A DNA stretch of 64,000 bases, taken from assembly GCF_007990755.1 (NCBI RefSeq), contig NZ_BJXA01000001.1, forward strand, positions 1 to 64,000. The letters run 5' to 3'. The DNA is from Nocardia ninae NBRC 108245 (GTDB lineage Bacteria; Actinomycetota; Actinomycetes; Mycobacteriales; Mycobacteriaceae). The number at the start of each line of letters is the position of its first letter. The stretch's first letter is position 1. Under the pieces are notes generated by a model. It saw only the letters and a list, made by a program, of their open reading frames with translations, was not told the origin of the DNA and ran no database searches. Both the position numbers and the translations under genes were made by a program. This document shows, piece by piece, positions 7,692-25,765 of the stretch.

Positions 7692-8141
7692 ATGGATATG
7701 GTGGACGAGGACCGCGCGCGTAAAGTCGCGATGATCGAGGAGTTCTTCCGGCTCAGCTCGGCCAAGGATTTCGAAGGTTTCCTGGCGTTGTGCACCGACG
7801 ACATCCACATGTCGATTCCGTACCAGCTGCCGGGCTTCCCGGACCACGCCGACGGTAAGGACGAGATCCGGGCCACCCGGACGGCGGTCGACCGGTACGA
7901 GCCCTACGCGATGTGGGCGAGCAAGATCGAGCCGATGCTGGACCCGGACCAGTTCCTGGTCGAGTCGAAGGGCGACATGGTCGTTCGCGCGACCGGCAGG
8001 CCCTACCGCAACGACTACGTGAACGTCTTCCGGTTCCGCGACGGCAAGATCGCCGAGTGGGTCAGCTACCACGATCCCTTGCGTCAGATGGTCGCGTTCG
8101 GACTGACGGAACTGCCGGTCGCCTCGGTTACTTCAGGATGA
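7692..8141 (+). CDS. NTF2/SnoaL-like protein
   Basis: A 149-residue single-domain protein with the SnoaL/PhzB-like pattern: an N-terminal helix (MIEEFFRLSSAKDFEGFLAL), CTDDIHMSIPYQLPG, then a C-terminal FRDGKIAEWVSYHDPL strand pair. Such cone-shaped folds act as isomerases, hydrolases or binding proteins, and the sequence does not say which. GGAAGG lies just upstream; ATG 7692 and ATG 7698 are both possible. It is convergent with the TetR gene and overlaps it by 14 bases. Neighbouring oxidoreductases suggest a catabolic role. Confidence 0.75.
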   Translation: MDMVDEDRARKVAMIEEFFRLSSAKDFEGFLALCTDDIHMSIPYQLPGFPDHADGKDEIRATRTAVDRYEPYAMWASKIEPMLDPDQFLVESKGDMVVRATGRPYRNDYVNVFRFRDGKIAEWVSYHDPLRQMVAFGLTELPVASVTSG

Positions 8142-8706
8142 GCAACGCGGACTTCTCGATTCGATCGGCGATCTCCGAATAGGACGCGTAACCCATGCCC
8201 GCGCGCACCAGCGCGCCCGCGTAGAGCAACTCCAGTGATTCGACGACATCCGGGTCCGCGTCGGGGCCGAGCGCCCGCATGATCCGTTTGCGGATCTCGG
8301 TCCCGATGCGACCGCGCAGATGCACCACGTCGGGGTCGCGGCCCAGCAGCGCGCTGGTGACCGCGCCGGAGAGCTCCTGCTCGTCGGCGACCAGCATCGC
8401 GATATCGCGCAGCTCGGCGACGACCCGGACCGTCGGGTCGGGGTCCTGGCTGGCCGGTGACGGCGCGGAAACCAAACGCCGCCAGAAGATCTCGGCGACC
8501 AGGTGTTCCTTCGAGGAGAAGTAGGTGTAGGCGGTGGCGGTGCCGACGCCCGCCGCCGCGGCGACCAACCGGATCGTCATCCCCGCGAACCCTTCGCGGG
8601 CAAGCACTTCCACCGCCGACCTGGTGAGCTTGTCGACGGTGTCGGCCTGCTTGCCGGAGAGCCTGCGGCGGGTCGCCTCGACGATGACGGGATCGGATTC
8701 GGACAT
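8128..8706 (-). CDS. TetR-family regulator, probable repressor of the P450 region
   Basis: The 192-residue protein has an N-terminal TetR helix-turn-helix (MTIRLVAAAAGVGTATAYTY, then FSSKEHLVAEIF) and a helical ligand domain. The start at 8706 sits inside a copy of the 17-bp element also found at the aldA/CYP123 and CYP51/MCE promoters, so autoregulation is likely. M. tuberculosis has a TetR gene (Rv0767c) between cyp123 and aldA. By position and gene neighbourhood this may be its counterpart, displaced next to the FAD dehydrogenase. The ligand is unknown, perhaps a sterol-like molecule. Confidence 0.85.
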   Translation of the reverse strand: MSESDPVIVEATRRRLSGKQADTVDKLTRSAVEVLAREGFAGMTIRLVAAAAGVGTATAYTYFSSKEHLVAEIFWRRLVSAPSPASQDPDPTVRVVAELRDIAMLVADEQELSGAVTSALLGRDPDVVHLRGRIGTEIRKRIMRALGPDADPDVVESLELLYAGALVRAGMGYASYSEIADRIEKSALLILK

Positions 8707-8717
8707 GTGTCTGGATA
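8701..8717 (-). promoter_or_regulatory. 17-bp shared operator, copy A (TetR start)
   Basis: On the minus strand the sequence is TATCCAGACACATGTCC, differing from copy C by one base. It covers the start codon of the TetR gene and lies in the 25-base gap after the FAD dehydrogenase stop. A repressor bound here would block initiation of its own gene, a common autoregulatory layout. Confidence 0.6.
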
Positions 8718-8731
8718 CTACTACGGGCAGG

Positions 8732-10201
8732 TCAGTTCTTCGCCGCGGCGATGCCCGCCCTGCGGCCGTAGAAACTGCCGTCACCCAGCGAAGCCCCGCT
8801 CACGTACCCGCCCGCGCACAGCCCGGAGGTGCAGCGCCCCGCGGCGAACAGGCCCGGGATCGGCTCGCCGGAGACGTGCAGCACCCGGGAGTCCAGGTCG
8901 GTGCGCAGGCCGCCCAGGGTGAAACCCGCCGTGTACCCGCGCATGTCGAACGCGGCCAGCGAACCTTGCAGCGGCCGCACCCATTCCGGCTTCTTGCCCA
9001 GCAGCGGGTCCTTGCCGTCGGCGGCGTGCAGGTTGTAGCAGTCGACGGTGGCCTGCAAGGCCAGCGTCGGCAGGCCCATGTCGGACTCCAGTTCCGCGAC
9101 CGTCTCGGCGGCCCAGGTGGGTGGCTGCCGGAAGAACGGGGTGGCGGTCTCGGTGGCCAGCCCGGCCTCGTAGGACGCCTCATCGATGACCAGGAAGGCC
9201 TGGTTCTCCTGCTGGATCAGCGCCGCCTGGCCGATCCGGCCCGGGTAGGTGTCCTCGGCGATGAACCGCTGGCCGCGCCCGTTCACCAGGATGCCGCGCG
9301 CCATCAGCTGCGGGTCGCCGAAGAAGGCGACCTCGGTCGCGTCCATGTGCGCCAGCTCCGCCCCGAGGGCCTGCGCGAGCCGGATGCCGATGCCGTCGTG
9401 CTCCTCGATCGCGGCGGCGGGCCTGCCGATCAGGCGTGGCGCGTAGCCCTCGATCATCTGCTGGTGGTAAGCGAAACTGCCGGTGGCCAAGACGATTCCG
9501 CGGTCGGCGCGGATGGCGACGTCTTTGCCGTAGCGTTTGGCGAGCACGCCGACCACGCGATCGTCGTCGTCCACCACCAGCCGGCCGATCCGCAGGTCGT
9601 ATTCGACGGCGACACCGAGTGCTTCGGCGGTCTCGGCCAGCGGCTTCATCAGCATGTAGCCGCCGCTCTTACGTCCGATCTTCTTGTCGGCGAACTGCGG
9701 AACATGGCCGCGCGGAGCCGGTTTCGCGATCGCGTTGAACGGGGCCGCGTTCTCGCCGCCGGAGTACATCAGGCCCTCGTCGTGCGGCGGCTCCCAGCCC
9801 GGCTCACCCCAGAAGGCCTCGCGGAACGGCACACCGCACGAGACGAGCCAGTTGTAGTGCTCGACGCTGCCGCGCGAGTAGTCGGCGATCTTGGCCTTGT
9901 CCACCCCGGGGCCGAGCGCCGCGAGTAGGAAGGTCTCCATGTTCTCCGGGGTGTCCTCGAAGCCGAGGGCCTGTTGCAGCGGGGTGCCGCCGCCGAGGTA
10001 GATGAAGCCGCCCGCCATCGCGGCCGCGCCGCCCCAGCCGCCGGTGCGTTCCAGGATCAGCACCTCGGCGCCCGCGCGGGCGGCTTCGATTGCGGCGCAT
10101 ACCCCGGCGATGCCGTAACCGGCCACGACTACATCGGCGTGCAGGTCCCACTCGGTGACGCTGCTCGCGCGTAGCGGCCGAAGGGTGTTGGCATCAGACA
10201 T
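8732..10201 (-). CDS. FAD-dependent dehydrogenase, KstD/fumarate-reductase flavoprotein family
   Basis: A 489-residue flavoprotein with an N-terminal FAD fold (DVVVAGYGIAGVCAA near residues 23-37), AGGFIYLGGG, and a C-terminal FAD-binding GLFAAGRCTSGLCAGGYVSG segment followed by GASLGDGSFYGR. This is the two-domain fold of 3-ketosteroid delta-1-dehydrogenases and soluble fumarate reductases. A steroid-type dehydrogenation fits the neighbours, but the reaction is inferred. It lies 12 bases downstream of the CMD gene on the same strand and directly upstream of the TetR gene, so it probably ends the aldA operon. Confidence 0.8.
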   Translation of the reverse strand: MSDANTLRPLRASSVTEWDLHADVVVAGYGIAGVCAAIEAARAGAEVLILERTGGWGGAAAMAGGFIYLGGGTPLQQALGFEDTPENMETFLLAALGPGVDKAKIADYSRGSVEHYNWLVSCGVPFREAFWGEPGWEPPHDEGLMYSGGENAAPFNAIAKPAPRGHVPQFADKKIGRKSGGYMLMKPLAETAEALGVAVEYDLRIGRLVVDDDDRVVGVLAKRYGKDVAIRADRGIVLATGSFAYHQQMIEGYAPRLIGRPAAAIEEHDGIGIRLAQALGAELAHMDATEVAFFGDPQLMARGILVNGRGQRFIAEDTYPGRIGQAALIQQENQAFLVIDEASYEAGLATETATPFFRQPPTWAAETVAELESDMGLPTLALQATVDCYNLHAADGKDPLLGKKPEWVRPLQGSLAAFDMRGYTAGFTLGGLRTDLDSRVLHVSGEPIPGLFAAGRCTSGLCAGGYVSGASLGDGSFYGRRAGIAAAKN

Positions 10202-10213
10202 GTTTCGGGTCCT

Positions 10214-10618
10214 TCACTCGGTGCGGTCGGCTTCCTGCTTGCGGGCGGCCTTCTTTTGTTGCGCCACTATGGTGCCCACCAACAGGTCCAGTTTGGTGCC
10301 GTTCGGCCAACCGACGTAGTGGCAGAGGAAGACCGCGATCTCGTGCAGTTGCTCCTCGGTGAGCTCCTCGTTGCGCAGCGCGGCGCCGATCTGGATGCCG
10401 GCGGTGTCTATGGCGCCTTGCGCGGTGAGCGCGCCGAGCAGCAACAGCCGCCGGTCCCGGATGGACAGCGCGGGACGCGACCAGATGTCGGCGAAAAGGT
10501 GGTCGGCGGTGACCGCGAAGTGGCTGCCGGGGTAGTCCTGGAACTCGGTGCCGTACACCTCGGCCATCTTGGCCAGGCCGCGCTGGCGCACGGAGTCGGC
10601 GGAACCGTTGTCGCTCAT
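10214..10618 (-). CDS. Carboxymuconolactone decarboxylase-family protein
   Basis: A 134-residue alpha-helical protein of the CMD/AhpD-like superfamily, with DRRLLLLGALTAQGA and the conserved FLCHYVGWPNG segment. No CxxC peroxidase pair is visible, so a peroxidase role is unlikely. Its ATG overlaps the stop of the upstream dehydrogenase gene by ATGA (10615-10618). In M. tuberculosis a CMD-family gene (Rv0771) occupies the same place in the aldA operon. Confidence 0.82.
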   Translation of the reverse strand: MSDNGSADSVRQRGLAKMAEVYGTEFQDYPGSHFAVTADHLFADIWSRPALSIRDRRLLLLGALTAQGAIDTAGIQIGAALRNEELTEEQLHEIAVFLCHYVGWPNGTKLDLLVGTIVAQQKKAARKQEADRTE

Positions 10619-11484
10619 GAGGATTGCCTTTCGGATGTGCCGACGCCGAGCCCGAGCCCGAGCCGGTCGAGCGCGAGTTCGGCCAGGGGGAGTGGGATGT
10701 CGAGCCGGGCAGCGAGTTCGAGCGCGAGACCGAGGTCCTTCTCGCCGAGATCGCGCACGTGCCGCAGGATCGGCAGCCAGAAGTCGCCCTCCTCGATGGG
10801 CGCGGTGCGGTCGCGCAGCATGATGGCGCCGGGGCCGCCGGTGACGGCGTCGGAGTGCCGCACCACCTTGCCGAGGACCGTGAGGTCGAGTCCGGCGGCC
10901 TCGGCCAGCCGCTGTGCCTCGGTGGTGGCGGTGAACGCGACGAAGTGGACCAGGTTGCGGGCCAGCTTCATTCGCGTGCCCGCGCCGACCGGGCCTGCGT
11001 GCACGATCAGATCGGCGAAACACTCGAAGGGTGCGCGGATTCGTTCGTAGGCCGCGTCGCTGCCGCCGACCATGACCGCGAGCCTGCCCTTCTTCGCGCC
11101 CGGTGCGCCGCCGCTGACCGGTGCGTCGACGAATTCGGCACCGTGCATGGCGCATTCGGTCGCGAGCTGTTCGGCGGTGCGGTCGCTGATCGTCGAGTGC
11201 ACCGCCACCACGGTGCCGGGAGCGGCGCTGCGCAGTAGTCCTTCGGGGCCGGTGATAACGTCGCGCACTTGTACGTCGTCGACCACGGCGATGGAGATGA
11301 CCGAGGCCCGCTCGGCGAGCTCGGCCGGTGAGGTAGCGGCTCCGGCTCCGGCCTCGGTGTACGGCAGCACCGCGTCGGCGCGCACATCGCAGACCGTCAG
11401 CCCGCCCGGCCAATTCAGCAGTCGCTTGGCCATCGGCGCACCCATGGCACCGAGTCCGATGAAGCCCAGCCGAGTGTCGGTCAT
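10615..11484 (-). CDS. Beta-hydroxyacid (3-hydroxyisobutyrate-type) dehydrogenase
   Basis: A 289-residue protein with an N-terminal NAD(P)-binding motif (GFIGLGAMGAPMAKRL), the substrate signature DAPVSGG, and GAGTRMKLARN with the catalytic Lys of this superfamily. It oxidises a hydroxyacid or reduces a semialdehyde; the substrate is unknown. Start and stop both overlap neighbouring genes by ATGA. It corresponds in kind and place to Rv0770 of M. tuberculosis. Confidence 0.85.
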   Translation of the reverse strand: MTDTRLGFIGLGAMGAPMAKRLLNWPGGLTVCDVRADAVLPYTEAGAGAATSPAELAERASVISIAVVDDVQVRDVITGPEGLLRSAAPGTVVAVHSTISDRTAEQLATECAMHGAEFVDAPVSGGAPGAKKGRLAVMVGGSDAAYERIRAPFECFADLIVHAGPVGAGTRMKLARNLVHFVAFTATTEAQRLAEAAGLDLTVLGKVVRHSDAVTGGPGAIMLRDRTAPIEEGDFWLPILRHVRDLGEKDLGLALELAARLDIPLPLAELALDRLGLGLGVGTSERQSS

Positions 11485-12230
11485 GAACGGAAAACCTGTC
11501 CGCCGTCGACATTGAAGATCTGCCCGGTGACCCAGCCTGCTTCGTCGGACAGCAGATACAGGCACGCGCCGACCAGGTCGGCCGGCGTGCCCATTCGCTT
11601 GAGCGGCAACCGGTTCACCATGTCCGCCACGATGGCCGCGGGTGTCACCGTCTTGGTCGCGTCGGTGTCGATGGGACCCGGTGCGATGGCGTTGATCCGG
11701 ATGTTCGAGCCGCCGAGCTCGAAGGCGAGCTGCTGGGTCAGGCCGTTGACGCCGACCTTGGCCAAGCCGTAGAAGCTGGAGTATGTCCAAGCGGCGGTGG
11801 AGGATTGGTTGACGATCGATCCACCGGTCTTGCGCATGTGCGGCCAGACGGCGCGGGTCATGTTCAGCGCGCCGTCCATGTTCACGCTCATGAACTTCTT
11901 GTAGTAGTCCCACGGCACGGTGAGCAGCAGGTTGAGCTTCATCTCGCCGTAGATGGCGGCGTTGTTGACGAGGTGGTCGATGCCGCCGAACTCGGCGACC
12001 GTCAGTTCGGCCAGGGCAGTAGCGGATTCGGGATCGGACACGTCGACCATGCCGAACAGCGCGGTGCCGCCGTCGGCGGTGATCTTCTCCACCGTCGCCT
12101 GCCCGCCCTCGTCATTCTTGTCGGCGACAACAACTTTCGCGCCCTCGGCGGCCAGCGCGGCGGCATAGGCGGCGCCGATGCCCTGCGCGGCGCCGGTGAC
12201 GATGACGGATCTTCCCGTGAAACGGGCCAT
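11481..12230 (-). CDS. SDR-family oxidoreductase
   Basis: A 249-residue classical SDR: TGAAQGIG cofactor loop near residue 12, NNAA, NQSSTAA with the catalytic Ser, YGLAK (Y-x3-K), and a C-terminal WVTGQIFNVDGGQ. It lies 15 bases after the aldehyde dehydrogenase and overlaps the beta-hydroxyacid dehydrogenase. The position matches Rv0769. It probably acts on an alcohol or ketone generated by the P450 pathway. Confidence 0.88.
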   Translation of the reverse strand: MARFTGRSVIVTGAAQGIGAAYAAALAAEGAKVVVADKNDEGGQATVEKITADGGTALFGMVDVSDPESATALAELTVAEFGGIDHLVNNAAIYGEMKLNLLLTVPWDYYKKFMSVNMDGALNMTRAVWPHMRKTGGSIVNQSSTAAWTYSSFYGLAKVGVNGLTQQLAFELGGSNIRINAIAPGPIDTDATKTVTPAAIVADMVNRLPLKRMGTPADLVGACLYLLSDEAGWVTGQIFNVDGGQVFRS

Positions 12231-12245
12231 GACGGTGTGCTCCTC

Positions 12246-13715
12246 TTATCCAGCGGTCGCGATCAGCTTGGTTTCCAGGTATTCCTCGAACCCGGCGATG
12301 CCCATCTCCCGGCCGATGCCGGACTGCTTGTAGCCGCCGAAGGGTGCGTCGGCGGAGTACCAGACGCCGCCGTTCACGCTCAACGTCCCGGTGCGTACGC
12401 CGTTGGTGACGTGGCGGATCCGTTCCGGGTCGGTGCCCCATACCGAGCCGGACAGCCCGTAGGGGGAGTCGTTGGCCAGCCGGATGGCGTCGTCGTCGCC
12501 GTCGTAGGGGATGACGACCAGCACCGGGCCGAAGATCTCCTCCTGCGCGACGGTCGCGCTGTTCGGCACGTCCGCGATCAGGGTCGGCTCGATGAAAAAG
12601 CCGCGTTCGCGATCGGCGGGCCGGCCGCCGCCGACCACGATGCGGCCGCCCTCGGACCGTGCGATGTCGAGGTAGCGCTCCACCCGGTCGCGCTGGCGCG
12701 CCGAGATGAGCGGTCCGCACACCGTCCGCGAATCGGCCGGATCACCAGGTTTGATACCCGACAGCGTCGCGGCGGCGGCCTGCACCGCCTCGTCGTAGGA
12801 CGCACGCGGGACGAGTAGCCGAGTAGTGATCGCGCAGCCTTGACCCGCATGCACGCACACCGAAAACGCCGCCACCGCACAGGCTCCGGCGATATTCGCG
12901 TCGTCGAGCACGATGAACGCCGACTTGCCGCCCAGTTCCAGGAACGCCTTCTTGAGTGTCGTTGCGGCGCCGCGCATCACGGCGCGCCCGGTCTGCGTCG
13001 AACCGGTGAAGCTGATCAGGTCGACCCGCGGGTCCTCGGTGAGGCGGGCGCCGAGCCCGTGGTCGGCGCCGGTCACGATGTTCACCACTCCGGCTGGAAT
13101 GTCGGTCTCCTCGGCCAGGATCGCGCCGACCGCCGCCGCGCACCACGGTGTGTCCGGGGCGGGCTTGAGCACCACGGTGTTTCCGGCAGCGAGGGCCGGT
13201 CCGAGCTTGGCGAAGGTGATCTGGTGCGGGAAGTTCCACGGGGTGATCGCGCCGACCACCCCGACCGGCTCGCGGCGCAGCACCCGGCGGGTCTTGATGC
13301 CCATCGGCTCTGCTGCGCCGAGATCGGTTTCCCAGCTGTAGGTTTCGGCCAGCGAGGCCGAGTAGGCGAGGTCGGCGATCGGGCCCTCCAGCTGCGGGCC
13401 GCGGGTGAACATGGCCGGCGCGCCCGCCTCGGCGATGGTGAGCTCGCGTAGTTCTTCGACGTGCGATTGCAAGGCTGTGCGTAGCTGTTCGAGGCAGTGC
13501 GAACGGAAGGCCGGGTCGCGGGACCAGTCGGTCTCGTCGAACGCGGTGCGGGCGGCGGCCACCGCCGCGTCGAGGTCGGCCGCGTCGGCGTTCGCGGCGT
13601 GCCCGAGCACCTCCTCGGTCGCCGGGTCGACGGTGGCGAAGACTCCGCCGCCACCCTCGACCAGCTTGCCGTCGATCAACAGACGCGCGCCGTCGGCGGG
13701 CAGCAGGCTACTCAT
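12246..13715 (-). CDS. aldA: NAD(P)-dependent aldehyde dehydrogenase, AldA-like
   Basis: A 489-residue aldehyde dehydrogenase. It has GAITPWNFPHQ for cofactor binding, FTGSTQTGR, the general base Glu in FLELGGKS and the catalytic Cys294 in AGQGC. It oxidises an aldehyde to an acid, a natural step after P450 or GMC oxidation. It leads a minus-strand operon (aldA, SDR, dehydrogenase, CMD, FAD dehydrogenase) and is divergent from the CYP123-like operon, with one copy of the 17-bp element 16 bases before its start. This matches aldA (Rv0768) facing the cyp123 side in M. tuberculosis. Confidence 0.88.
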   Translation of the reverse strand: MSSLLPADGARLLIDGKLVEGGGGVFATVDPATEEVLGHAANADAADLDAAVAAARTAFDETDWSRDPAFRSHCLEQLRTALQSHVEELRELTIAEAGAPAMFTRGPQLEGPIADLAYSASLAETYSWETDLGAAEPMGIKTRRVLRREPVGVVGAITPWNFPHQITFAKLGPALAAGNTVVLKPAPDTPWCAAAVGAILAEETDIPAGVVNIVTGADHGLGARLTEDPRVDLISFTGSTQTGRAVMRGAATTLKKAFLELGGKSAFIVLDDANIAGACAVAAFSVCVHAGQGCAITTRLLVPRASYDEAVQAAAATLSGIKPGDPADSRTVCGPLISARQRDRVERYLDIARSEGGRIVVGGGRPADRERGFFIEPTLIADVPNSATVAQEEIFGPVLVVIPYDGDDDAIRLANDSPYGLSGSVWGTDPERIRHVTNGVRTGTLSVNGGVWYSADAPFGGYKQSGIGREMGIAGFEEYLETKLIATAG

Positions 13716-13730
13716 GCGTTGCTCCGATGC

Positions 13731-13747
13731 TGTCTGGACACATGTAC
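13731..13747 (+). promoter_or_regulatory. 17-bp shared operator, copy B (aldA promoter)
   Basis: TGTCTGGACACATGTAC matches copy C at 14 of 17 positions. It lies 16 bases upstream of the aldA start and would overlap its 5' untranslated region or promoter. Confidence 0.5.
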
Positions 13748-13777: not shown

Positions 13778-13791
13778 AAGAACACGTTCTA
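13778..13791. promoter_or_regulatory. KstR-like site in the aldA/CYP123 control region
   Basis: AAGAACACGTTCTA fits the published KstR pattern TnnAACnnGTTnnA except for A at the first base. KstR represses cholesterol catabolic genes in mycobacteria and rhodococci. The site lies 62 bases before the aldA start and about 225 before the CYP123-like gene. Confidence 0.5.
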
Positions 13792-13924: not shown

Positions 13925-13941
13925 TGTCCAGACACATGTCC
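13925..13941 (+). promoter_or_regulatory. 17-bp shared operator, copy C (CYP123-like promoter)
   Basis: TGTCCAGACACATGTCC, with a further A, reads as two TGTCCA direct repeats around GACACA; the core GACACATGTC is also nearly palindromic. It lies about 75 bases upstream of the P450 start. I used this copy as the reference for the other three. Confidence 0.6.
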
Positions 13942-13983
13942 AGTTATCTGCCTCCGCTATCCGGACGGCCCGATATCGCTCGG

Positions 13984-13997
13984 GAGAACTTGTTCTC
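13984..13997. promoter_or_regulatory. Weak KstR-like site just before the CYP123-like gene
   Basis: GAGAACTTGTTCTC keeps the AACnnGTT core but lacks the outer T and A of the KstR pattern. It lies 19 bases before the GTG start. A repressor here would block the promoter or initiation, but the match is weaker than at 13778 and 19678. Confidence 0.3.
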
Positions 13998-14015
13998 GAA
14001 GCCGGAGTGGTTGAA

Positions 14016-16226
<2,211 letters not shown>

Positions 16227-16227
<1 letters not shown>

Positions 16228-18046: not shown

Positions 18047-19642
18047 GTGGCCCGTAACTTCGCCGACCTGTTCGAACATTCCGTCGACGCGATGCCCGAC
18101 CGGGTCGCACTGCGCGAAGGCGACCGCAGCCTGACCTTCGCGGAGCTCGACGCGCGCGCCAATCGGCTTGCCGCGCATCTGTCTTCGGCCGGCCTCCGCG
18201 CGGGCACCCACATCGGGTTCCAGATGCACAACGGCATCGAGACGATGGAAACGCTGCTCGCCTGCTTCAAGATCCGAGCCGCCCCCATCAATATCAACTA
18301 TCGCTACGGCGTCGAGGAACTGCGGTATGTCTACGACAACGCGGACCTCGAGGCGCTGGTCTATCACGCCTGCTATGCCGAGGCGGTGCACGCCGCCGCG
18401 GCCGGGGTGCCATCGCTGCGGCACCGAATCGTGGTGCAGGACGGCACCGTCGCCCCGGTCGACGCCGTGCACTACGAAGACGCCCTCGCCGCGGGGTCGG
18501 CCGAGCGGGCTTTCCCGGAGCGCAGCGGCGACGACCTGTTCATGATGTACACCGGCGGCACCACGGGGCTGCCGAAGGGCGTGATGTGGCGGCAGGAAGA
18601 CATGTGGCGGGTGCTCGGCGGCGGCATCGATTTCTACACCGGTGTTCCGGTGGCCGACGAGTACGAGCAGTCCCGGGTCGGCGCGCAGGGCCAGCAGAGC
18701 ACCTGGTTCGTGCTGCCGCCGCTGATCCACGCGGCCGCCATGATGCCGACCTTCACCGCGCTGTGGTCCGGCAACGCGGTGCTGTTCGAGCCACGATTCG
18801 ACGCGAATCGGGTGTGGCAGGCGGTCGCTCGGCACCGCCCGCAGGTCATGGTCATCACCGGTGACGCCATGGCACGGCCACTGATCGACGCCTACCGGGC
18901 CGCGCCCGTCGACGCGACGGGGTTGATCGCCATCGGCTCGGGTGCCGCGTTGCTGTCGCAGCCGGTGAAGAACGCACTGCTGGAACTGTTTCCGTCGCTG
19001 GTCGTCACCGACTCGATCGGCTCGTCGGAAACCGGCTTCGGCGGAATAGGTTTCGCACAGAAGGACGACAACCCCGGACGCGGGCCACGCGTGCAGACGG
19101 GACGCGGTTCGATGGTCGTGGACGACGACGGACGTCCGGTGCAGCCCGGCGAGGAAGGGTGGCTGGCGAAGACGGGGTCGGTGCCGCTCGGCTACTACAA
19201 GGATCCGGTGAAGACCGACAAGCTGTTCAAGACCGTCGACGGTGCGCGCATCGTGGTCACCGACGATCGGGCGCGGATCGAGACGGACGGGTCGGTCACG
19301 CTGCTCGGCCGCGGCAACATGGTGATCAATACCGGCGGCGAGAAGGTCTTCGTCGAAGAGGTCGAGGCGGTGGTGAAGGCGCACGACGGGGTCTACGACG
19401 CGGTGGTGGTCGGTGTCCCGCACGAGCGATGGGGGTGGCAGGTCGCCGCCGTGGTCTCTGTCGCCGAACTGGTCGACTTCGCGGCGCTGAGCGAGCATGT
19501 GCGCCAACATCTCGCCGGATACAAGGTGCCCAAGAAGATCTGGGTGGTCGAGAGCGTGGTCCGAGCCCCCAGCGGCAAACCGGACTATCGGTGGGCCAAG
19601 GACGCCACGGCGCAGCGCGCCCCGGACTACAGCGCGGACTGA
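18047..19642 (+). CDS. Acyl-CoA synthetase, FadD19-like
   Basis: A 531-residue ANL-superfamily ligase with the AMP-binding P-loop MYTGGTTGLPKGVMWRQED near residue 167, IGSSETG, and the C-terminal hinge and Lys region (LLGRGNMVINTGGEKVF, then PSGKPDYRWAK). The VMWRQ extension and the long loop after it resemble FadD19-type ligases that activate sterol side-chain acids in the KstR regulon. The sequence cannot fix the substrate. It lies 24 bases after the unknown gene on the same strand; GTG 18047 has only a weak ribosome site. Confidence 0.85.
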   Translation: MARNFADLFEHSVDAMPDRVALREGDRSLTFAELDARANRLAAHLSSAGLRAGTHIGFQMHNGIETMETLLACFKIRAAPININYRYGVEELRYVYDNADLEALVYHACYAEAVHAAAAGVPSLRHRIVVQDGTVAPVDAVHYEDALAAGSAERAFPERSGDDLFMMYTGGTTGLPKGVMWRQEDMWRVLGGGIDFYTGVPVADEYEQSRVGAQGQQSTWFVLPPLIHAAAMMPTFTALWSGNAVLFEPRFDANRVWQAVARHRPQVMVITGDAMARPLIDAYRAAPVDATGLIAIGSGAALLSQPVKNALLELFPSLVVTDSIGSSETGFGGIGFAQKDDNPGRGPRVQTGRGSMVVDDDGRPVQPGEEGWLAKTGSVPLGYYKDPVKTDKLFKTVDGARIVVTDDRARIETDGSVTLLGRGNMVINTGGEKVFVEEVEAVVKAHDGVYDAVVVGVPHERWGWQVAAVVSVAELVDFAALSEHVRQHLAGYKVPKKIWVVESVVRAPSGKPDYRWAKDATAQRAPDYSAD

Positions 19643-19677: not shown

Positions 19678-19691
19678 AGGAACGTGTTCTA
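19678..19691. promoter_or_regulatory. KstR-like site before the second aldehyde dehydrogenase
   Basis: AGGAACGTGTTCTA matches TnnAACnnGTTnnA at all fixed positions but the first. It lies 62 bases before the ATG at 19753, the same distance as the other good site lies from aldA. Confidence 0.5.
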
Positions 19692-19752: not shown

Positions 19753-21345
19753 ATGAGTACTGAGACGAAGAAGAGTCCCACCGCGGCGCTGCCCGCACGG
19801 ATCACCGGTGCGCTGATCGACCGGTTGACCGAGCTGGTCGTCGCCGACGGTACCGCCGCACCGTACTCGATGACGGAGGTCTATACCGGCGCTTCGGTCG
19901 GTGACCTCCCGCAATCCACCCCGGCGGACGTGCGCGCCGCCGCCACGACGGCCCGTGCGGCACAACAGGAATGGGCTGCACTGCCGGTGCGCAGCAGGCT
20001 GCGGGTCTTCGAGCAGATGCACGAACTGATCCTCGGTGAGGTCGAGACGATCGCCGATCTCATCCAGATCGGCTGCGGCAAGACCCGGCGGATGGCCGTC
20101 GAGGAGTCGTGCGACGTGCCGATGGTCATCAGCCACTACCTGAAAACCGCGCGCCGCGTGCTGCGTTCGAAGCGCCGCGGTGGCCCGATGCCGATCGTGA
20201 CCACCTCGACCGAGGAGCACCGGCCCAAGGGGCTGGTCGCGGTCATCGCGCCGTGGAACTTCCCGTTCGCGATCGCGTTGTCCGACGCGATGCCCGCGCT
20301 GATGGCGGGTAACGGCGTAATCCTCAAGCCGGACAACAAGACCGCGCTGTGTGTCCTCTACGGCGTCGAGCTGCTGCACCGGGCCGGTCTGCCGCGCGGA
20401 CTCGTGCAGGTCGTCTGCGGTGAAGGCCCGGACATCGGACCCACGCTGATCGACAGCGTCGACTTCGTCATGTTCACCGGCTCGACGGCCACCGGCCGGG
20501 TGGTCGGCGAACAGGCCGGGCGCAATCTGATCGGGTGCAGCCTGGAGCTCGGTGGCAAGAACCCGATGCTGGTGCTCGACGACGCGAACCTCGACGAGGT
20601 GGTCCCGGGTGCGGCGTTCTCGGTGTTCGCCAACTCCGGCCAGGCATGCATGCACATCGAGCGGATCTACGTGCACCGCAGTCTCTACGACGAGTTCGTG
20701 CGCCGATTGGTCGCTGCCGCCGACGAACTCAACAGCAAGATCGGTGCCGCGTACGACTACACGCCGGAGTTCGGTTCGCTGGTCTCGGTGCAGCACCGGG
20801 ATCGGGTCGCCGCGCACGTCGAGGACGCCCGTGCCAAAGGCGCCACCGTGCTGACCGGTGGTAAGGCGCGGCCGGACGTCGGTCCCGCGTTCTATGAGGC
20901 GACCGTGCTCACCGGCGTCACACCGGAGATGACGCACGCGACGCTGGAGACCTTCGGCCCGGTGGTGAGCGTGTATCCATACGACGACGAGCAGGAGGCC
21001 ATCCGGCTCGCCAACGACACCGAGTACGGCTTGAACGCGAGCGTGTGGAGCCGGGACCTGAACCGCGCCAACCGCATTGCCGCACAGCTGCAAGCCGGGA
21101 ACATCAATATCAACGACGGCTTCGTGGCGACCTACGCCGCCAAGGGCACGCCGTCGGGTGGGGTGAAGCAGTCCGGCGTCGGCACCCGGCACGGCGATCA
21201 GGGCCTGCTCAAGTACACCGACACGGTCAACGTCGGCGTGCTCAAACGTCAGGTGCTGTCCGCCCGCTCGGGCCAGCCCTACGAGAAGCAATTGAAGATG
21301 ACGCTGATGTCCTTGCGGCTGATGCGCCGAACCAGGCTGCGCTGA
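19753..21345 (+). CDS. Aldehyde dehydrogenase, succinate-semialdehyde type (GabD2-like)
   Basis: A 530-residue aldehyde dehydrogenase with APWNFPFAIA, FTGSTATGR, LELGGKNPM (general base Glu) and catalytic Cys299 in SGQACMH. Length and sequence resemble the actinobacterial succinic-semialdehyde dehydrogenase GabD2 group, but many members act on other aldehydes. A KstR-like site lies in its 110-base leader, and the CYP125-like gene follows 43 bases later. This suggests oxidation of an aldehyde formed from a P450-hydroxylated side chain. GGAGAAG precedes the ATG. Confidence 0.85.
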   Translation: MSTETKKSPTAALPARITGALIDRLTELVVADGTAAPYSMTEVYTGASVGDLPQSTPADVRAAATTARAAQQEWAALPVRSRLRVFEQMHELILGEVETIADLIQIGCGKTRRMAVEESCDVPMVISHYLKTARRVLRSKRRGGPMPIVTTSTEEHRPKGLVAVIAPWNFPFAIALSDAMPALMAGNGVILKPDNKTALCVLYGVELLHRAGLPRGLVQVVCGEGPDIGPTLIDSVDFVMFTGSTATGRVVGEQAGRNLIGCSLELGGKNPMLVLDDANLDEVVPGAAFSVFANSGQACMHIERIYVHRSLYDEFVRRLVAAADELNSKIGAAYDYTPEFGSLVSVQHRDRVAAHVEDARAKGATVLTGGKARPDVGPAFYEATVLTGVTPEMTHATLETFGPVVSVYPYDDEQEAIRLANDTEYGLNASVWSRDLNRANRIAAQLQAGNININDGFVATYAAKGTPSGGVKQSGVGTRHGDQGLLKYTDTVNVGVLKRQVLSARSGQPYEKQLKMTLMSLRLMRRTRLR

Positions 21346-21388
21346 ACCCGATTCGGCGCGGTTCGCAGTACCACCTGAGGAGGTAGCC

Positions 21389-22615
21389 GTGGCGACACCG
21401 TCGTTGCCGGCCGGATTCGACTTCACCGATCCGGCCCTGTGGGAGACGCGAAGGCCCGTCGAGGAGTTCGCGCTGCTGCGCGGGACCGCGCCGGTCTGGT
21501 GGAATCCGCAACCCGACGACCACTCCGGCGGTTTCCGGGACGGCGGCTACTGGGTGGTGAGCAAACTCGACGACGTCAAGGAGGTCTCGCGGAATTCGGA
21601 GCTGTTCTCCTCCGAGCGGAAGGGCTCGATCATCCGGTTGTCCGACGACATCACACCGGAGCAGCGGGCCGCGTCGAACGTGCTGCTGGTGAACATGGAT
21701 CCGCCGAAGCACTCCAAATTCCGCAAGATCATCACCAAGGGTTTCACCCCGCGCGCGGTGGAGGGATTACGTGCGGCATTGACCGAACGAGCGCATGCCA
21801 TTGTGCACGAGGCGAAAAAAACGGGCGGCGGGAACTTCGTCGAACAGGTCGCCTGCGAGCTGCCGTTGCAAGCGATCGCCGAGCTGATCGGCGTGCCGCA
21901 GGCGGACCGGCGCAAGCTGTTCGACTGGTCGAATCAGATGCTCAGCTACGACGACCCGGATTACGGTGATCCCGCGCTCGCCTCGGCCGAAATCCTCGGT
22001 TACGCCTGGAATCTGGCCGAGGAGCGGCGCAGTAGCCCGGCCGGGGATATCGTGTCCGAACTCGTGCACGCCGATGTCGACGGTGAGTCGCTCGGCTCCG
22101 ACGAATTCGGGTTCTTCGTCATTCTGCTTTCGGTGGCGGGCAACGAAACAACACGCAATGCCATCACGCACGGCATGAAAGCGTTCGTGGACCATCCGGA
22201 GCAGTGGGAGCTCTACAAAGATCAGCGCCCGCGCACCGCGCCCGACGAGATCGTCCGGTGGGCCACGCCGGTCACCGCGTTCCAGCGCACCGCCACCGCG
22301 GACACCGAGATCGGCGGCACCCGGATCCGGGAAGGCGACCGAGTCGGACTGTTCTACGGCTCCGCCAACTTCGACGAGGACGCCTTCGCCGATCCGTTCA
22401 CCTTCGACGTGCTGCGCGACCCCAATCCGCATGTCGGTTTCGGCGGCACCGGCGCGCATTACTGCGTCGGCGCGAACCTGGCCAGGCTGGAAATCGACCT
22501 GATGTTCAACGCCATCGCCGAGGCCATGCCCAAGATCACCGAGGTGGCAGATCCGGTACGGTTGCGGTCGGGGTGGATCAACGGAATCAAGAATTGGCAG
22601 GTCCGATACGAATGA
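21389..22615 (+). CDS. Cytochrome P450, CYP125-like (steroid side-chain hydroxylase family)
   Basis: A 408-residue P450 with AGNETTRN near residue 250, the haem loop GFGGTGAHYCVGANLAR with Cys359, and LRSGWINGIKNWQV at the end. From memory these, together with GFDFTDP at the start, VEEFALLR, FVEQVACELPLQAIAELIGV and WATPVTAFQRTA, match M. tuberculosis CYP125, which oxidises the terminal side-chain carbon of cholesterol. The KstR-like site upstream and the ligase nearby fit the same theme. It may be a paralogue with another sterol or terpenoid substrate. GGAGGT precedes GTG 21389. Confidence 0.88.
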   Translation: MATPSLPAGFDFTDPALWETRRPVEEFALLRGTAPVWWNPQPDDHSGGFRDGGYWVVSKLDDVKEVSRNSELFSSERKGSIIRLSDDITPEQRAASNVLLVNMDPPKHSKFRKIITKGFTPRAVEGLRAALTERAHAIVHEAKKTGGGNFVEQVACELPLQAIAELIGVPQADRRKLFDWSNQMLSYDDPDYGDPALASAEILGYAWNLAEERRSSPAGDIVSELVHADVDGESLGSDEFGFFVILLSVAGNETTRNAITHGMKAFVDHPEQWELYKDQRPRTAPDEIVRWATPVTAFQRTATADTEIGGTRIREGDRVGLFYGSANFDEDAFADPFTFDVLRDPNPHVGFGGTGAHYCVGANLARLEIDLMFNAIAEAMPKITEVADPVRLRSGWINGIKNWQVRYE

Positions 22616-23097
22616 GTCTTCGAGACGTACCGCTGCAGACGCTGAGCGGGGAATCCACGACGCTGTCCGAGCTGGTCGGCGACAAGGTGGTGTTGCTGGT
22701 GAACGTGGCCTCCAAGTGTGGGCTGACGCCGCAGTACTCCGGTTTGGTCGAATTGCAGAAGTCCTACGGCCCGCGCGGTTTCAGTGTGGTCGGGGTGCCC
22801 TGCAACCAATTCATGGGCCAGGAGCCCGGCTCGGCCGAGGAGATCCAGCAATTCTGCTCAACCACCTACGGCGTCGATTTCCCGCTGCTGGACAAGGCCG
22901 ACGTCAACGGCGAGAACCAGCACCCGCTGTACCGGACGCTGGTCGAAACCCCCGACGCCGACGGCGCGGCCGGTGACGTGCAGTGGAACTTCGAGAAGTT
23001 CCTGATCGACCGCGACGGCAAGGTGGCGGGGCGGTTCCGGCCCACCGTCGGCCCCGACGCGTCGGCGCTCGTCGCATCGATCGAATCTTTGCTCTGA
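22612..23097 (+). CDS. Glutathione peroxidase-family thiol peroxidase
   Basis: A 161-residue thioredoxin-fold peroxidase with catalytic Cys36 in SKCGLTPQY, VPCNQFMGQEP, and WNFEKFLIDRDG with the tetrad Trp125-Asn. Cys in place of selenocysteine and the C-terminal length are usual for bacterial enzymes, which mostly use thioredoxin. The ATG overlaps the CYP125-like stop by ATGA. Coupling to a P450 suggests removal of hydroperoxides made by uncoupled turnover or from oxidised lipid substrates. A strong terminator follows. Confidence 0.9.
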   Translation: MSLRDVPLQTLSGESTTLSELVGDKVVLLVNVASKCGLTPQYSGLVELQKSYGPRGFSVVGVPCNQFMGQEPGSAEEIQQFCSTTYGVDFPLLDKADVNGENQHPLYRTLVETPDADGAAGDVQWNFEKFLIDRDGKVAGRFRPTVGPDASALVASIESLL

Positions 23098-23104
23098 GTG
23101 CACC

Positions 23105-23137: not shown

Positions 23138-23150
23138 CATGTTCGGCCGC

Positions 23151-24503
23151 TCAGCGTTGTCGTCTGCGGTAGCGGACCGTGCACGGTTGCATCAACTGCA
23201 CCACCATCTTGCTGTGGTCGTTGCGGTAGCTCTCCGACGGCTGCGCCATCTCGAACTCCCAGTCCCGCAGCAGGATCGAGAAGATGGCCTTCAGCTGCAT
23301 CAGGGCGAACGGCGCGCCGACGCAGCGGTGTCGGCCGGCGCCGAACGGGATCCAGGTCCATCGGTTGACGATGTCCTCTTGCCTCGGGTCGGCGTAGCGG
23401 CCGGGGTCGAACAGCTCCGGATCCGGGAAGTCCTCGGCGATCCGGTTGGAGATCGCGGGGGTGGCGGCGACCAGGTCGCCCGGGGCGATGTGGTGCCCGC
23501 ACACGTCGAAATCGCCGCGGGCCACGCGCATCAGCACGATCAGCGGCGGGTGCAGGCGCAGGGTCTCCTTGAGCACCGCCTCCAGGTTCGGGATCTGGCG
23601 TAGCGCGCCGAAGCTGATGTCGGAGCCGTCGGCGTACAGGTCGTCGAGTTCGGCGACCACCCGGCGCAGTTGGCCGGGGTGGCGGAGGAGTTCGATCACC
23701 GTCCAGGCCGCGGTGCCCGAGGTGGTGTGGTGCCCGGCGAACATCATCGAGATGAACATGCCGGTGATCTCGCTGGCGCTGAATCGCGGGGTGCCGTGCT
23801 CGTCTTTGATGGAGACCAGGACGTCGAGCATGTCCCGATCGTCCTTGCCTGCCGGGGGACTGGCGGCGCGGGTGTCCATGATGCCCTGGACCAGTTCGAC
23901 GAGTTCGACGCGGGCGGCGTCGCGGCGGCGGAAGCTCTCGATGGGGGCGTAGGGGTCCACGTACGCCAGGGCGTCGGTGCCGCGCTCCAGATCGTGGTAG
24001 AGCCGGGCGAACCGTTCGTCCAGCTCGTCGCGGAACTTGACGCCGATCAGGCAGGCGGAGGAGGTGTAGATGGTCAGCTCGGCGAAGAAGTCGAGCAGGT
24101 CGATCTCGCCCGCGTCGCCCCAGCGCGCCAGCATCCGGTCCACCTCGCGGGCGATCGTCGCGGCGTGGCCGCGCATCTGCTCGGCGCGCAGGGCCTGGTT
24201 GTGCAGCATCTCCTTGCGGCGTTCGGGCGGTGCGTCGAAGACGACGCCCTCGCCGAAGATCGGCTTCATGAACGGATACGCGGCGGCCTGATCGAGATCC
24301 TCGTCGCCGGAGCGGAAGAAGAACTCGTTGGCCTCCGCGCCCGACAGGAGGATCACCTGTCGCCCCGCCAGATCGAAGGACCCGACGTCGCCGCATTCCG
24401 TGCGTACCCTGCGCATCAAGCCGATCGGGTCGGTCCGGAATTCCGGCAGGTGACCGAGTTCCTGCTGTGCACCCGAAACTCGTTGCGGCGTAACCAGAGT
24501 CAT
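23151..24503 (-). CDS. cyp51: Sterol 14-alpha-demethylase CYP51
   Basis: A 450-residue P450 that matches M. tuberculosis CYP51 (Rv0764c) almost continuously as remembered: EEFRTDPIGLM-like start, FFFRSGDEDLDQ, CYP51-type FAGHHTTSGTA in helix I, KETLRLHPP, and FGAGRHRCVGAPFA with Cys394 at the same number. It removes the 14-alpha-methyl group of lanosterol-type sterols by three oxidations. Bacteria seldom make sterols, so its natural role is unclear. GGGAGGG precedes ATG 24503. It is divergent from the MCE gene with only 44 bases between starts, containing copy D of the 17-bp element. Confidence 0.95.
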   Translation of the reverse strand: MTLVTPQRVSGAQQELGHLPEFRTDPIGLMRRVRTECGDVGSFDLAGRQVILLSGAEANEFFFRSGDEDLDQAAAYPFMKPIFGEGVVFDAPPERRKEMLHNQALRAEQMRGHAATIAREVDRMLARWGDAGEIDLLDFFAELTIYTSSACLIGVKFRDELDERFARLYHDLERGTDALAYVDPYAPIESFRRRDAARVELVELVQGIMDTRAASPPAGKDDRDMLDVLVSIKDEHGTPRFSASEITGMFISMMFAGHHTTSGTAAWTVIELLRHPGQLRRVVAELDDLYADGSDISFGALRQIPNLEAVLKETLRLHPPLIVLMRVARGDFDVCGHHIAPGDLVAATPAISNRIAEDFPDPELFDPGRYADPRQEDIVNRWTWIPFGAGRHRCVGAPFALMQLKAIFSILLRDWEFEMAQPSESYRNDHSKMVVQLMQPCTVRYRRRQR

Positions 24504-24541
24504 CGGAAACCCTCCCGGGGATCGCGGTCCGAACCTATCAT

Positions 24542-24558
24542 GGACACGTGTCTGGACA
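24542..24558 (-). promoter_or_regulatory. 17-bp shared operator, copy D (CYP51/MCE promoter)
   Basis: On the minus strand the sequence is TGTCCAGACACGTGTCC, one base different from copy C; its core GACACGTGTC is a perfect palindrome. It lies 38 bases upstream of the CYP51 start and overlaps the proposed MCE start codon, so one bound repressor could silence both genes. Confidence 0.6.
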
Positions 24559-25765
24559 TTACTACGACACAGGTGACCGGGCAAGATGGTCGCTGTGGTC
24601 GGCCATCCGGTTGAAGCTGGCCGGTGCCGCCATGGTCGTTGTGCTGGTCGCCATAGTCGGTGTGGCACTTTCGATGTTCACCGGCCGGTATGTCGCGACG
24701 GCCACCGTGACCGTGGACGCGCCGCGTAGCGGGCTGGTGCTCGATCCCGCGGCGAAGGTGAAACTGCGCGGAGTGGAGATCGGGCGGGTGGAGTCGGTGG
24801 GGCGGGCGGGCGGCCGAGTGCGGTTGGTGCTCGCGCTCGATCCCGAGTCGCTGCCACTGGTTCCGGCGAATGTGCGGGTGGACATCCGCTCTACCACGAT
24901 CTTCGGTGGGAAGTACGTGAACTTCGTTGTCCCGCCGCATCCTTCGGCCCACCGGCTGCGCGACGGTGCCACCGTGCCCGCGGACGCGGTGACCGTCGAA
25001 TTCAACACGCTGTTCGAACAGCTCACCCGGATCCTGGCGCAGATCGCGCCGGAGCGGCTCAACGCCACCCTCACCGCCCTGTCCACCGCACTGCAGGGCC
25101 GCGGCGAGATACTCGGGGACCTGCTGGCGCGGGCCGCCGCCTATCTCCGCGACATCAATCCCAGTCTGCCTGCCCTGCACCGCGATACGATCGCCGCGGC
25201 CGAGGTCACCGCCCTCTACGCCGACACCATCGACGACCTGTTGCGCACCACGGCCAGCGCGACCACCACGAGCGTCACCCTCACCGAACAGGAAGCCGAC
25301 CTGGACGCGGTGCTACTGAACGTCATCGGGCTGGCCGACACCACCGATGCCGTCCTCACCGAAAACGAACACCATCTCGCCACCACCCTGGACCTGCTCC
25401 GGCCGACCACCGGCCTGCTGAACACCTACAAGCCGGTACTGAACTGCCTCGTCCTGGGCCTGGCCGAAACGCTCCCTGACGCCGAATCTTTCGTCGGCGG
25501 CATCCAACCGGGTGCCGTCTTCAACGCCGGCTTCATGTACGGCGGCGAGCCCTACACCTACCCCGACGACCTCCCCAAGGTCAACGCCACCGGCGGCCCC
25601 CACTGCGCCGGCATCCTCGACCGCATCCCCGGCTCCCACGCCCCCTACCTCGTCACCGACACCGCCGAAAACACCCCCTACGCCCCCTCCACCACCCTGA
25701 AGGTGAATGCCCCCAAGGTCTTCCAAATCCTGTTCGCCGGTCTACCGGGAGTCTCATCGCCGTGA
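24548..25765 (+). CDS. Orphan MCE-family lipid-binding protein
   Basis: A 405-residue protein with one N-terminal membrane anchor (about residues 22-48), an MCE/MlaD beta-barrel domain (VRSGLVLDP-like strand, VKLRGVEIGRVESV, then IFGGKYVNF) and a long helical C-terminal part, as in Mce proteins. MCE proteins form periplasmic or cell-wall tubes for lipid import, usually encoded as six with two YrbE permeases; none of those are here. GTG 24548 lacks a ribosome site and lies within copy D of the shared operator, so the start may be leaderless or further in (ATG 24632). Its pairing with CYP51 suggests sterol-like lipid handling. Confidence 0.82.
   Translation: MSGHYYDTGDRARWSLWSAIRLKLAGAAMVVVLVAIVGVALSMFTGRYVATATVTVDAPRSGLVLDPAAKVKLRGVEIGRVESVGRAGGRVRLVLALDPESLPLVPANVRVDIRSTTIFGGKYVNFVVPPHPSAHRLRDGATVPADAVTVEFNTLFEQLTRILAQIAPERLNATLTALSTALQGRGEILGDLLARAAAYLRDINPSLPALHRDTIAAAEVTALYADTIDDLLRTTASATTTSVTLTEQEADLDAVLLNVIGLADTTDAVLTENEHHLATTLDLLRPTTGLLNTYKPVLNCLVLGLAETLPDAESFVGGIQPGAVFNAGFMYGGEPYTYPDDLPKVNATGGPHCAGILDRIPGSHAPYLVTDTAENTPYAPSTTLKVNAPKVFQILFAGLPGVSSP

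Follow-up and report, generated by a model that had tools for sequence, protein, structure and literature searches.

Positions 1-64,000 of contig NZ_BJXA01000001.1 of Nocardia ninae NBRC 108245 (assembly GCF_007990755.1), hereafter the window, contain at 8128-25765 a block of genes that includes a sterol 14alpha-demethylase (CYP51). On balance, we think that this block is a catabolic module that would feed 14alpha-methyl, probably 4-methyl, 5alpha-sterols into the ordinary cholesterol pathway, with obtusifoliol, lanosterol and cycloartenol-type plant or fungal intermediates as candidate substrates; we infer both the substrate and the chemistry. An uptake-and-degradation pathway had been proposed in the initial annotation of this DNA, and its catabolic part is supported by a 3-ketosteroid-delta4-(5alpha)-dehydrogenase (delta4-(5alpha)-KSTD) and a CYP125 in the block, by KstR-type sites in a genome that encodes KstR, by the finding of no squalene epoxidase in that genome, by the joining of YrbE/Mce genes to the block in three Rhodococcus loci, and by the published phytosterol induction of an orthologous regulon (PMC6593523). 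A sterol-catabolic interpretation is plausible, and it is better supported now than when first proposed. All of the gene kinds originally named in the block were recovered by Pfam and NCBIfam models, structure matches and translations. The window forms the start of contig C1 of a 9.7-Mb genome in 204 contigs.

The strongest argument for the proposed substrate is the pairing of CYP51 with delta4-(5alpha)-KSTD. CYP51 converts a 14alpha-methyl sterol into the 14-ene and formate, and such sterols are 5alpha and have no delta5 bond. Oxidation at C3 of a 5alpha sterol without delta5 yields a saturated 3-ketone and not a 4-en-3-one, so that a delta4-(5alpha)-dehydrogenase is needed before delta1-dehydrogenation and 9alpha-hydroxylation; because the CYP51 products have no delta5 bond, the presence of this dehydrogenase in the block would be explained. 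The flavoprotein at 8732-10201 gives a full-length match of 836 bits (residues 1-488 of 489) to structure 4AT0, which is, with 4AT2, the delta4-(5alpha)-KSTD of Rhodococcus jostii RHA1, whereas delta1-KSTD structures reach only 76-82 bits. The earlier label "KstD-like flavoprotein" is corrected to delta4-(5alpha)-dehydrogenase. Assuming a 20-residue chain offset, the catalytic residues Tyr319, Tyr466 and Ser468 are identical in the 4AT0 alignment. The CYP51 matches 1E9X (Rv0764c) with 777 bits over residues 3-448 of 450, and the alignment conserves the haem-Cys motif and the B'-helix Phe, which is associated with a preference for obtusifoliol-type substrates. A bacterial CYP51 demethylates lanosterol in vitro although its hosts have no full sterol pathway, and the relevance of this activity is called unclear in one review (PMC6469627); another review states that a Rhodococcus CYP51 demethylates lanosterol (PMC11279926).

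The P450 described at first as CYP125-like is CYP125 proper, since CYP125 structures score 588 bits against 321 for CYP124 and 191 for CYP142. It is one of three in the genome at E 1e-60, the other two copies being 74% and 63% identical to it and each preceded by a KstR-type site. The 63% copy, on contig C17, adjoins ChsH2-like, thiolase and ligase genes; because it sits in this side-chain gene cluster, the CYP125 of the window is an additional copy. The acyl-CoA ligase of the block, at first called FadD19-like, was compared with ligases of its own genome: it is 48% identical to its nearest paralogue, which lies near the C17 cyp125 gene, and 26% identical to another ligase there, so that the FadD19-like label stays putative. 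The P450 at the CYP123 position has no close relative among solved structures and is 58-64% identical to the P450 found between SDR (short-chain dehydrogenase) and TetR genes in mycobacterial loci.

The regulatory sites of the block point to two regulators. A common operator had been proposed for the whole region; the predicted palindromic operator CAYGTGTCYRGACA is indeed found at the TetR gene, at the first aldehyde dehydrogenase gene (ALDH1), at the CYP123-position P450 and between CYP51 and the MCE gene, but the run of second aldehyde dehydrogenase (ALDH2), CYP125 and glutathione peroxidase has a KstR-type site and no operator. Exact matches to CAYGTGTCYRGACA number three in the whole genome, all of them in the block, against none for the reversed control. 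When one mismatch is allowed, eight matches are obtained, four of them in the block, and the control gives nine; as this total is no higher than that of the control, the four matches outside the block are taken as background, and the pattern with up to one mismatch provides no excess over control outside the block that would indicate a genome-wide regulon. A search of 39 genomes of the genus gave 62 exact matches, with 7 for the control, and the pattern is present in 32 of the 39.

Upstream regions of relatives were scored for the operator core GGACA-N2-TGTCC at 9/10 or better, in loci picked for holding block genes, several of which come from one genome. In Nocardia, the core precedes TetR in 34/35 cases, ALDH1 in 23/23, the CYP123-position P450 in 26/26 and CYP51 in 22/25 (shuffles, 0.2-0.9%). 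In 14 mycobacterial-type loci, of which L047-L058 belong to the Mycobacterium group and L059-L060 do not, it precedes TetR and ALDH1 in 13 each and the P450 and CYP51 in none, which fits the location of both latter genes downstream in a TetR-led operon there. The TetR of the block is 42-47% identical to the TetR at the matching place in mycobacterial loci. Genes within operons lie mostly near background in Nocardia, with scattered scores of 9/10 at SDR1 (2/25), SDR2 (2/27), ferredoxin (1/26), ALDH2 (1/11) and CYP125 (2/22); the exceptions are the carboxymuconolactone-decarboxylase-like (CMD) gene, with 5/29 (shuffles 4/580), and the beta-hydroxyacid dehydrogenase gene, with 7/27 (shuffles 6/540). 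These scores run counter to a strictly promoter-only operator; in loci L094 and L095, the dehydrogenase gene adjoins an operator.

To see where the operator sits, every distinct upstream stretch was taken from relatives that share at least 55% identity. Among the stretches with an operator, an ATG or GTG lies within it in 60/60 for TetR (61 examined), where it is mostly the start codon itself, in 57/57 for the P450 (85 examined), in 26/30 for CYP51 (62 examined) and in 26/66 for ALDH1 (67 examined). A TANNNT box 12-14 bases upstream of that ATG/GTG was found in 60, 57, 26 and 19 of them, respectively. This placement fits leaderless transcripts, with the repressor predicted to cover both the first codon and the -10 box. 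In front of the P450 gene, the short frame that begins at the operator ATG stops between -2 and +4 of the P450 start in 42/57 sequences, and the leader is 27 codons long in 34 distinct sequences. Its peptide shows no visible protein-level selection (difference rates of 0.499, 0.465 and 0.421 at codon positions 1, 2 and 3), so that translation of the leader, rather than its sequence, may matter. Short open reading frames from an operator ATG/GTG are also seen in the window before CYP51 (24500-24547) and ALDH1 (13712-13741), ending on the start codon of the enzyme.

The second regulator is KstR, whose published motif is TnnAACnnGTTnnA (PMC1995591). We defined a KstR-type site as a match of at least 10/12 to TAGAACNNGTTCTA. 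The 64 kb contain three such matches (13778, 13984 and 19678) against 0.3 expected, and all of them are in the block; the sites at 13778 (11/12) and 19678 (10/12) each lack the first T of TAGAACNNGTTCTA. In Nocardia, a site of the 13778 type lies upstream of ALDH1 in 14/23 loci and of the P450 in 14/26 (one intergenic site being counted from both sides), and a KstR-type site precedes ALDH2 in 9/11. Further matches at this threshold occur before CYP125 (3/22), glutathione peroxidase (7/22), CMD (1/29) and ferredoxin (1/26). KstR itself is encoded in the genome (335.8 bits, cut-off 280), with a perfect site 270 bases before its match. Judged from these sites, the block is apparently co-regulated by the Rv0767c-type TetR and KstR. 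As a separate observation, five mycobacterial loci (L168, L177, L179, L187 and L191) have KstR-like matches in the gap that separates the NTF2-like gene from the ferredoxin gene.

Table 1. Genes and predicted regulatory sites of the CYP51 block (coordinates in the window).
Feature	Position	Strand	Evidence or remark
TetR-family repressor	8128-8706	-	Pfam TetR_N; positional orthologue of Rv0767c
Operator A, one mismatch to CAYGTGTCYRGACA	8704-8717	+	spans TetR start
3-Ketosteroid-delta4-(5alpha)-dehydrogenase (FAD protein)	8732-10201	-	4AT0 836 bits
CMD, Rv0771 position	10214-10618	-	Pfam CMD on longer frame 10214-11512; NCBIfam below cut-offs
Beta-hydroxyacid dehydrogenase, Rv0770 position	10615-11484	-	NCBIfam 2-hydroxy-3-oxopropionate reductase / 3-hydroxyisobutyrate dehydrogenase models, below cut-offs
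SDR, Rv0769 position	11481-12230	-	NF005853 420.8 bits, cut-off 303
ALDH1, Rv0768 family	12246-13715	-	TIGR04284 aldehy_Rv0768 887.4 bits, cut-off 775
Operator B, exact CAYGTGTCYRGACA	13731-13744	-	before ALDH1
KstR-type site, 11/12	13778-13791	.	between divergent ALDH1 and P450
Operator C, exact CAYGTGTCYRGACA	13925-13938	-	before CYP123-position P450
27-codon leader open reading frame	13936-14019	+	begins inside operator C, overlaps P450 start
Cytochrome P450, CYP123 (Rv0766c) position	14016-15218	+	Pfam p450 on longer frame
SDR, Rv0765c position	15218-16024	+	NF005854 440.4 bits, cut-off 260
Ferredoxin, Rv0763c position	16021-16227	+	translation, tblastn, synteny
NTF2/SnoaL-like protein	16227-16775	+	SnoaL_2 below cut-off; alignment
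413-aa protein, family unknown	16781-18022	+	no Pfam match at E 10; alignment of 45 sequences
Acyl-CoA ligase (AMP ligase)	18047-19642	+	NF005863 716.4 bits, cut-off 543
KstR-type site, 10/12	19678-19691	.	before ALDH2
ALDH2	19753-21345	+	NF006916 727.2 bits, cut-off 521
CYP125, steroid C26-monooxygenase family	21389-22615	+	CYP125 structures 588 bits
Glutathione peroxidase	22612-23097	+	Pfam GSHPx on longer frame; NF007900 below cut-off
CYP51, sterol 14alpha-demethylase family	23151-24503	-	1E9X (Rv0764c) 777 bits
Operator D, exact CAYGTGTCYRGACA	24545-24558	+	between divergent CYP51 and MCE genes
Single MCE protein (MceA-like)	24548-25765	+	Pfam Mce4_CUP1 + MlaD

By combining these gene families with the predicted sites, the following mechanism may be proposed. 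The Rv0767c-type TetR would cover the -10 region and the start codon until a sterol-derived ligand releases it, and KstR would act as a second check on expression of the block. CYP51 and ferredoxin would then take off the 14alpha-methyl group as formate. The methyl at C4 could be oxidized to a carboxylate by the CYP123-position P450, the Rv0768-type aldehyde dehydrogenase and the beta-hydroxyacid dehydrogenase, SDR and CMD proteins; a 4-carboxy-3-hydroxysterol is a beta-hydroxyacid, and its carboxylate would be lost as CO2 after oxidation of the 3-hydroxyl. Subsequently, delta4-(5alpha)-KSTD would install the 4-en-3-one, which cannot be obtained by isomerization in a 5alpha-sterol without the delta5 bond. 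Finally, CYP125, the ligase and ALDH2 would begin side-chain removal, and the rings would be broken down by KstR-controlled genes elsewhere in the genome. The C4-demethylation step and the fate of the 14-ene are the least certain parts. Three enzymes are needed for C4-demethylation in eukaryotes, namely, a methyl oxidase, a 3-hydroxy dehydrogenase that decarboxylates and a ketoreductase (PMC6385002), and by analogy, the P450, the aldehyde dehydrogenase and the beta-hydroxyacid dehydrogenase could carry out equivalent chemistry. In its fullest form, the proposal would be a complete oxidative 4,14-demethylation route. CYP51 would handle C14, and C4 would be the task of a new system in which the CYP123-type P450 and the Rv0768-type aldehyde dehydrogenase work with the beta-hydroxyacid dehydrogenase/CMD pair; this pair would serve as a decarboxylating 4-carboxysterol dehydrogenase with no relation to the SMO/C4D enzymes of eukaryotes or the Sdm enzymes of bacteria. 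We put this route forward tentatively, and would sooner doubt it than assert it.

Parts of this system have counterparts in known loci. The Rv0763c-Rv0771 block of Mycobacterium tuberculosis consists of ferredoxin, cyp51, SDR, cyp123 and tetR, and of aldA, SDR, beta-hydroxyacid dehydrogenase and CMD. The same core genes and order around TetR are seen in the mycobacterial loci compared, and loci of this type share with the Nocardia block the operator core at the TetR start and before aldA. In contrast, the Nocardia CYP51 stands outside the TetR-led operon with its own operator, and Nocardia can add delta4-(5alpha)-KSTD, the ligase, ALDH2, CYP125, glutathione peroxidase, MCE and the KstR-type sites. 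The enlarged arrangement is nothing exceptional within the genus: many Nocardia genomes have it, often in split form, and relatives of it occur in Rhodococcus and mycobacteria. The nearest named relative of the block, in Nocardia suismassiliense S-137, has the same order of genes. The delta4-(5alpha)-KSTD gene lies here in an operon with Rv0768-Rv0771-type genes beside TetR, whereas in the Mycobacterium-group genomes with both genes it stands apart from CYP51. CYP125, the ligase and the KstR-type sites resemble the KstR regulon and the cholesterol side-chain cluster, but CYP51 and a further repressor set the block apart from that cluster. Rv0764c, Rv0766c, Rv0767c, Rv0768 and Rv0769 are not named in the main text of the paper on KstR (PMC1995591).

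A related published regulon is that of Mycobacterium sp. VKM Ac-1817D, where induction by phytosterol was connected with the Rv0767c orthologue G155_05115 and its palindromic "motif X"; 14 operons belong to it, of which 12 rose more than threefold, and a KstR site stands alongside in two cases (PMC6593523). As in the Nocardia block, there is an Rv0767c orthologue with a site near its own start codon and sometimes a KstR site too, along with several P450s, SDRs and aldehyde dehydrogenases; a putative steroid isomerase belongs to the published regulon as well. Unlike those 14 operons, no site above background was found here outside the block with the CAYGTGTCYRGACA pattern. The link of regulator and motif to phytosterol is thus already known, and what the genus as a whole carries is a variant of known steroid catabolism and not a new kind of system. 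Neither cyp51 nor lanosterol occurs in the main text of PMC6593523, and in the passages of open-licence papers that were searched we found none that connects bacterial CYP51 with delta4-(5alpha)-KSTD or uses its gene neighbourhood to connect it with sterol catabolism.

Gene-neighbourhood comparison, suggested in the initial annotation, recovered the block across Nocardia and partial forms of it in Rhodococcus and mycobacteria. Among 148 genomes of the genus, CYP51 is present in 140 (1e-100), delta4-(5alpha)-KSTD in 143 (1e-150) and TetR in 145 (1e-20); among 200 genomes of the order, CYP51 is present in 27 (1e-150) and delta4-(5alpha)-KSTD in 16 (1e-180). Some Nocardia genomes have the block in one piece and others have it divided among two or three loci, a few with an extra TetR copy, and a CYP51 that stands apart from the block keeps the operator in most cases. 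In loci chosen around block genes, with some genomes counted twice, delta4-(5alpha)-KSTD lies within 1.5 kb of CMD or beta-hydroxyacid dehydrogenase in all 54 Nocardia loci that hold it, and TetR is no more than 200 bp away in 25 of them and no more than 8 kb away in 46. Long loci (19 kb or more) were found through the 413-aa protein, as the best 80 of 362 candidates. Of these, 36 are from Nocardia (ligase in 35, delta4-(5alpha)-KSTD in 22), four from Rhodococcus (CYP51 in four, CYP125 at 59-60% identity in three, ligase in three, an MCE gene in three and delta4-(5alpha)-KSTD in two) and 19 from mycobacteria, eight of which have CYP51, with CYP125 near it in all eight. Of the 12 Mycobacterium-group loci chosen by CYP51, six hold the 413-aa gene in the same stretch.

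The MCE protein of the window has the Mce4_CUP1 and MlaD domains of Mce4-type sterol importers and, in three Rhodococcus loci, shares 45-46% identity with the Mce gene that comes first after YrbE; operator D contains the start codon of the window gene. An Mce importer operon consists of two YrbE permeases and six Mce genes. Unlike such an operon, the window has one MCE gene and no permease, and YrbE gave no match in the 64 kb; as this one MceA-like gene is the only one in the window, we do not claim import by it alone, and its part in uptake, as first proposed, is putative. In Rhodococcus oryzae, R. sp. RD6.2 and R. maanshanensis, a co-directional run of TetR, P450, SDR, CYP51, ferredoxin, NTF2-like, unknown, ligase and CYP125 genes continues past CYP125 with two YrbE-like genes and then Mce genes; a Pfam scan, made for RD6.2 only, found several Mce proteins and one MlaE permease. 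Five Nocardia loci have a pair of YrbE-like genes that face away from the P450 on the other side of the operator, and three of these loci show a weak MCE match beyond the pair.

Several results weigh against a dedicated methyl-sterol module. Linkage of the block is loose in much of the genus: CYP51 shares the stretch with delta4-(5alpha)-KSTD in 24/54 Nocardia loci and lies within 10 kb in only 8/36 long loci found through the 413-aa gene. In the 11 Mycobacterium-group genomes with both genes, CYP51 and delta4-(5alpha)-KSTD either sit on separate contigs or have more than 1.6 Mb between them; delta4-(5alpha)-KSTD, ligase and MCE were found near the mycobacterial block in 0/8 long loci and in 0/12 loci chosen by CYP51 (L047-L058), and only five of the latter 12 have CYP125 in the stretch. 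Rhodococcus locus L163, one of the four long loci, has a 42% P450 match in place of CYP125. KstR-type sites are missing from 9/23 ALDH1, 12/26 P450 and 2/11 ALDH2 upstream stretches in Nocardia, and none was found upstream of the tested block genes in any of the 14 mycobacterial-type loci. In a 49-row CYP125 tree, whose one canonical reference is on a long branch, the copies fall into more than one clade across the three genera, and the Rhodococcus copies group with the C17 copy of this genome (99/97). This tree lends no support to one ancient origin for the CYP125 of the cluster, and its simplest reading would be repeated recruitment of CYP125 to the block. Among the genes scanned, no delta14-reductase and no 14-methyl-specific enzyme besides CYP51 was recognized, and the C4-demethylation step is a proposal drawn from family logic. 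Most of the "motif X" regulon did not rise in M. smegmatis or R. jostii, and the authors suggest plant-sterol side chains as the target of the regulon, adding that it is apparently not limited to them (PMC6593523).

That suggestion leads to the best placed of the alternatives, in which the block would be a phytosterol side-chain module for C24-branched sitosterol and campesterol, and CYP51 would hydroxylate an intermediate without 14-demethylation in vivo. CYP125, the ligase and the aldehyde dehydrogenases fit such a role, and the inducer in PMC6593523 was phytosterol. Against it, sitosterol carries a delta5 bond and requires neither CYP51 nor delta4-(5alpha)-KSTD, and the aldol lyases ltp3/ltp4, named for C24 branches, were not seen among the block genes scanned. 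We regard this explanation as rather unlikely. More doubtful still is a role for the block in the use of other 5alpha-steroids or of triterpenoids, namely, stanols, aglycones of plant saponins or tetracyclic triterpenoids, where CYP51 would take a triterpenoid and not a sterol intermediate as its substrate. It would satisfy the delta4-(5alpha)-KSTD family, which demands only a saturated 5alpha A ring, and a study of tomato-root Sphingobium on steroidal glycoalkaloids exists (PMC10653915); against it, no glycosidase or sugar gene was seen among the scanned block genes, and the CYP51 scores 777 bits against a sterol demethylase. If the shared repressor answered an unrelated signal such as fatty acids or azoles, the block could serve the general oxidation of lipids or xenobiotics, and its aldehyde dehydrogenases, SDRs, ligase and glutathione peroxidase are generic; this is improbable in view of the two steroid-specific enzymes, the KstR-type sites, the Rhodococcus YrbE/Mce linkage and the published phytosterol induction. 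Sterol or hopanoid biosynthesis by the bacterium itself, which the biosynthetic role of CYP51 in other organisms might suggest, is rejected as scarcely credible, because the squalene epoxidase family PF08491 has 0 matches in this genome in a search that matched 2/14 control genomes.

Some further features of the block and its surroundings were also observed. In loci of Nocardia, Rhodococcus and mycobacteria alike, the NTF2-like gene adjoins the ferredoxin gene. A Pfam search relaxed to E 10 gave no match for the 413-aa protein, and in an alignment of 45 sequences, its family shows invariant His110-Cys111 and Cys129-His130; in 11/19 long mycobacterial loci, its gene has no CYP51 within 10 kb. 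Relatives of this protein at 58-59% identity are held in contigs of metagenome-assembled genomes labelled Bifidobacterium breve (L167 and L169), which are probably mislabelled or mixed bins. The 74% CYP125 copy (C31:29172-30392; L108, L110) lies near phytanoyl-CoA dioxygenase-like and epoxide hydrolase-like genes, and the whole genome gives 62 P450 family matches, some being pieces of one gene. The GMC oxidoreductase, SDR and NTF2-like genes at 5160-8141 were left out of the block, as operator A is the only stretch scoring 9/10 there; a check of four GMC loci of relatives gave operator-core scores of 8, 6, 6 and 8. A distinct palindrome-like stretch at approximately 7610-7640, near ACGATCGGTCGT and before the NTF2-like gene at 7692, is perhaps the operator of another regulator. 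At 28151-31657, the window encodes a 1168-aa protein that, judging from its translation, we presume to resemble a carboxylic acid reductase.

Returning to the methyl-sterol module that we favour, the partner genes suggest that bacteria of this kind keep CYP51 to consume methylated plant or fungal sterols. The sharing of an operator between CYP51 and the delta4-(5alpha)-dehydrogenase operon would give the bacterial enzyme a concrete role that can be tested in laboratory strains, namely, demethylation for food, and would also indicate enzymes for degrading methyl sterols. If true, the 4,14-demethylation route would give a function to the whole CYP51 block retained by mycobacteria.

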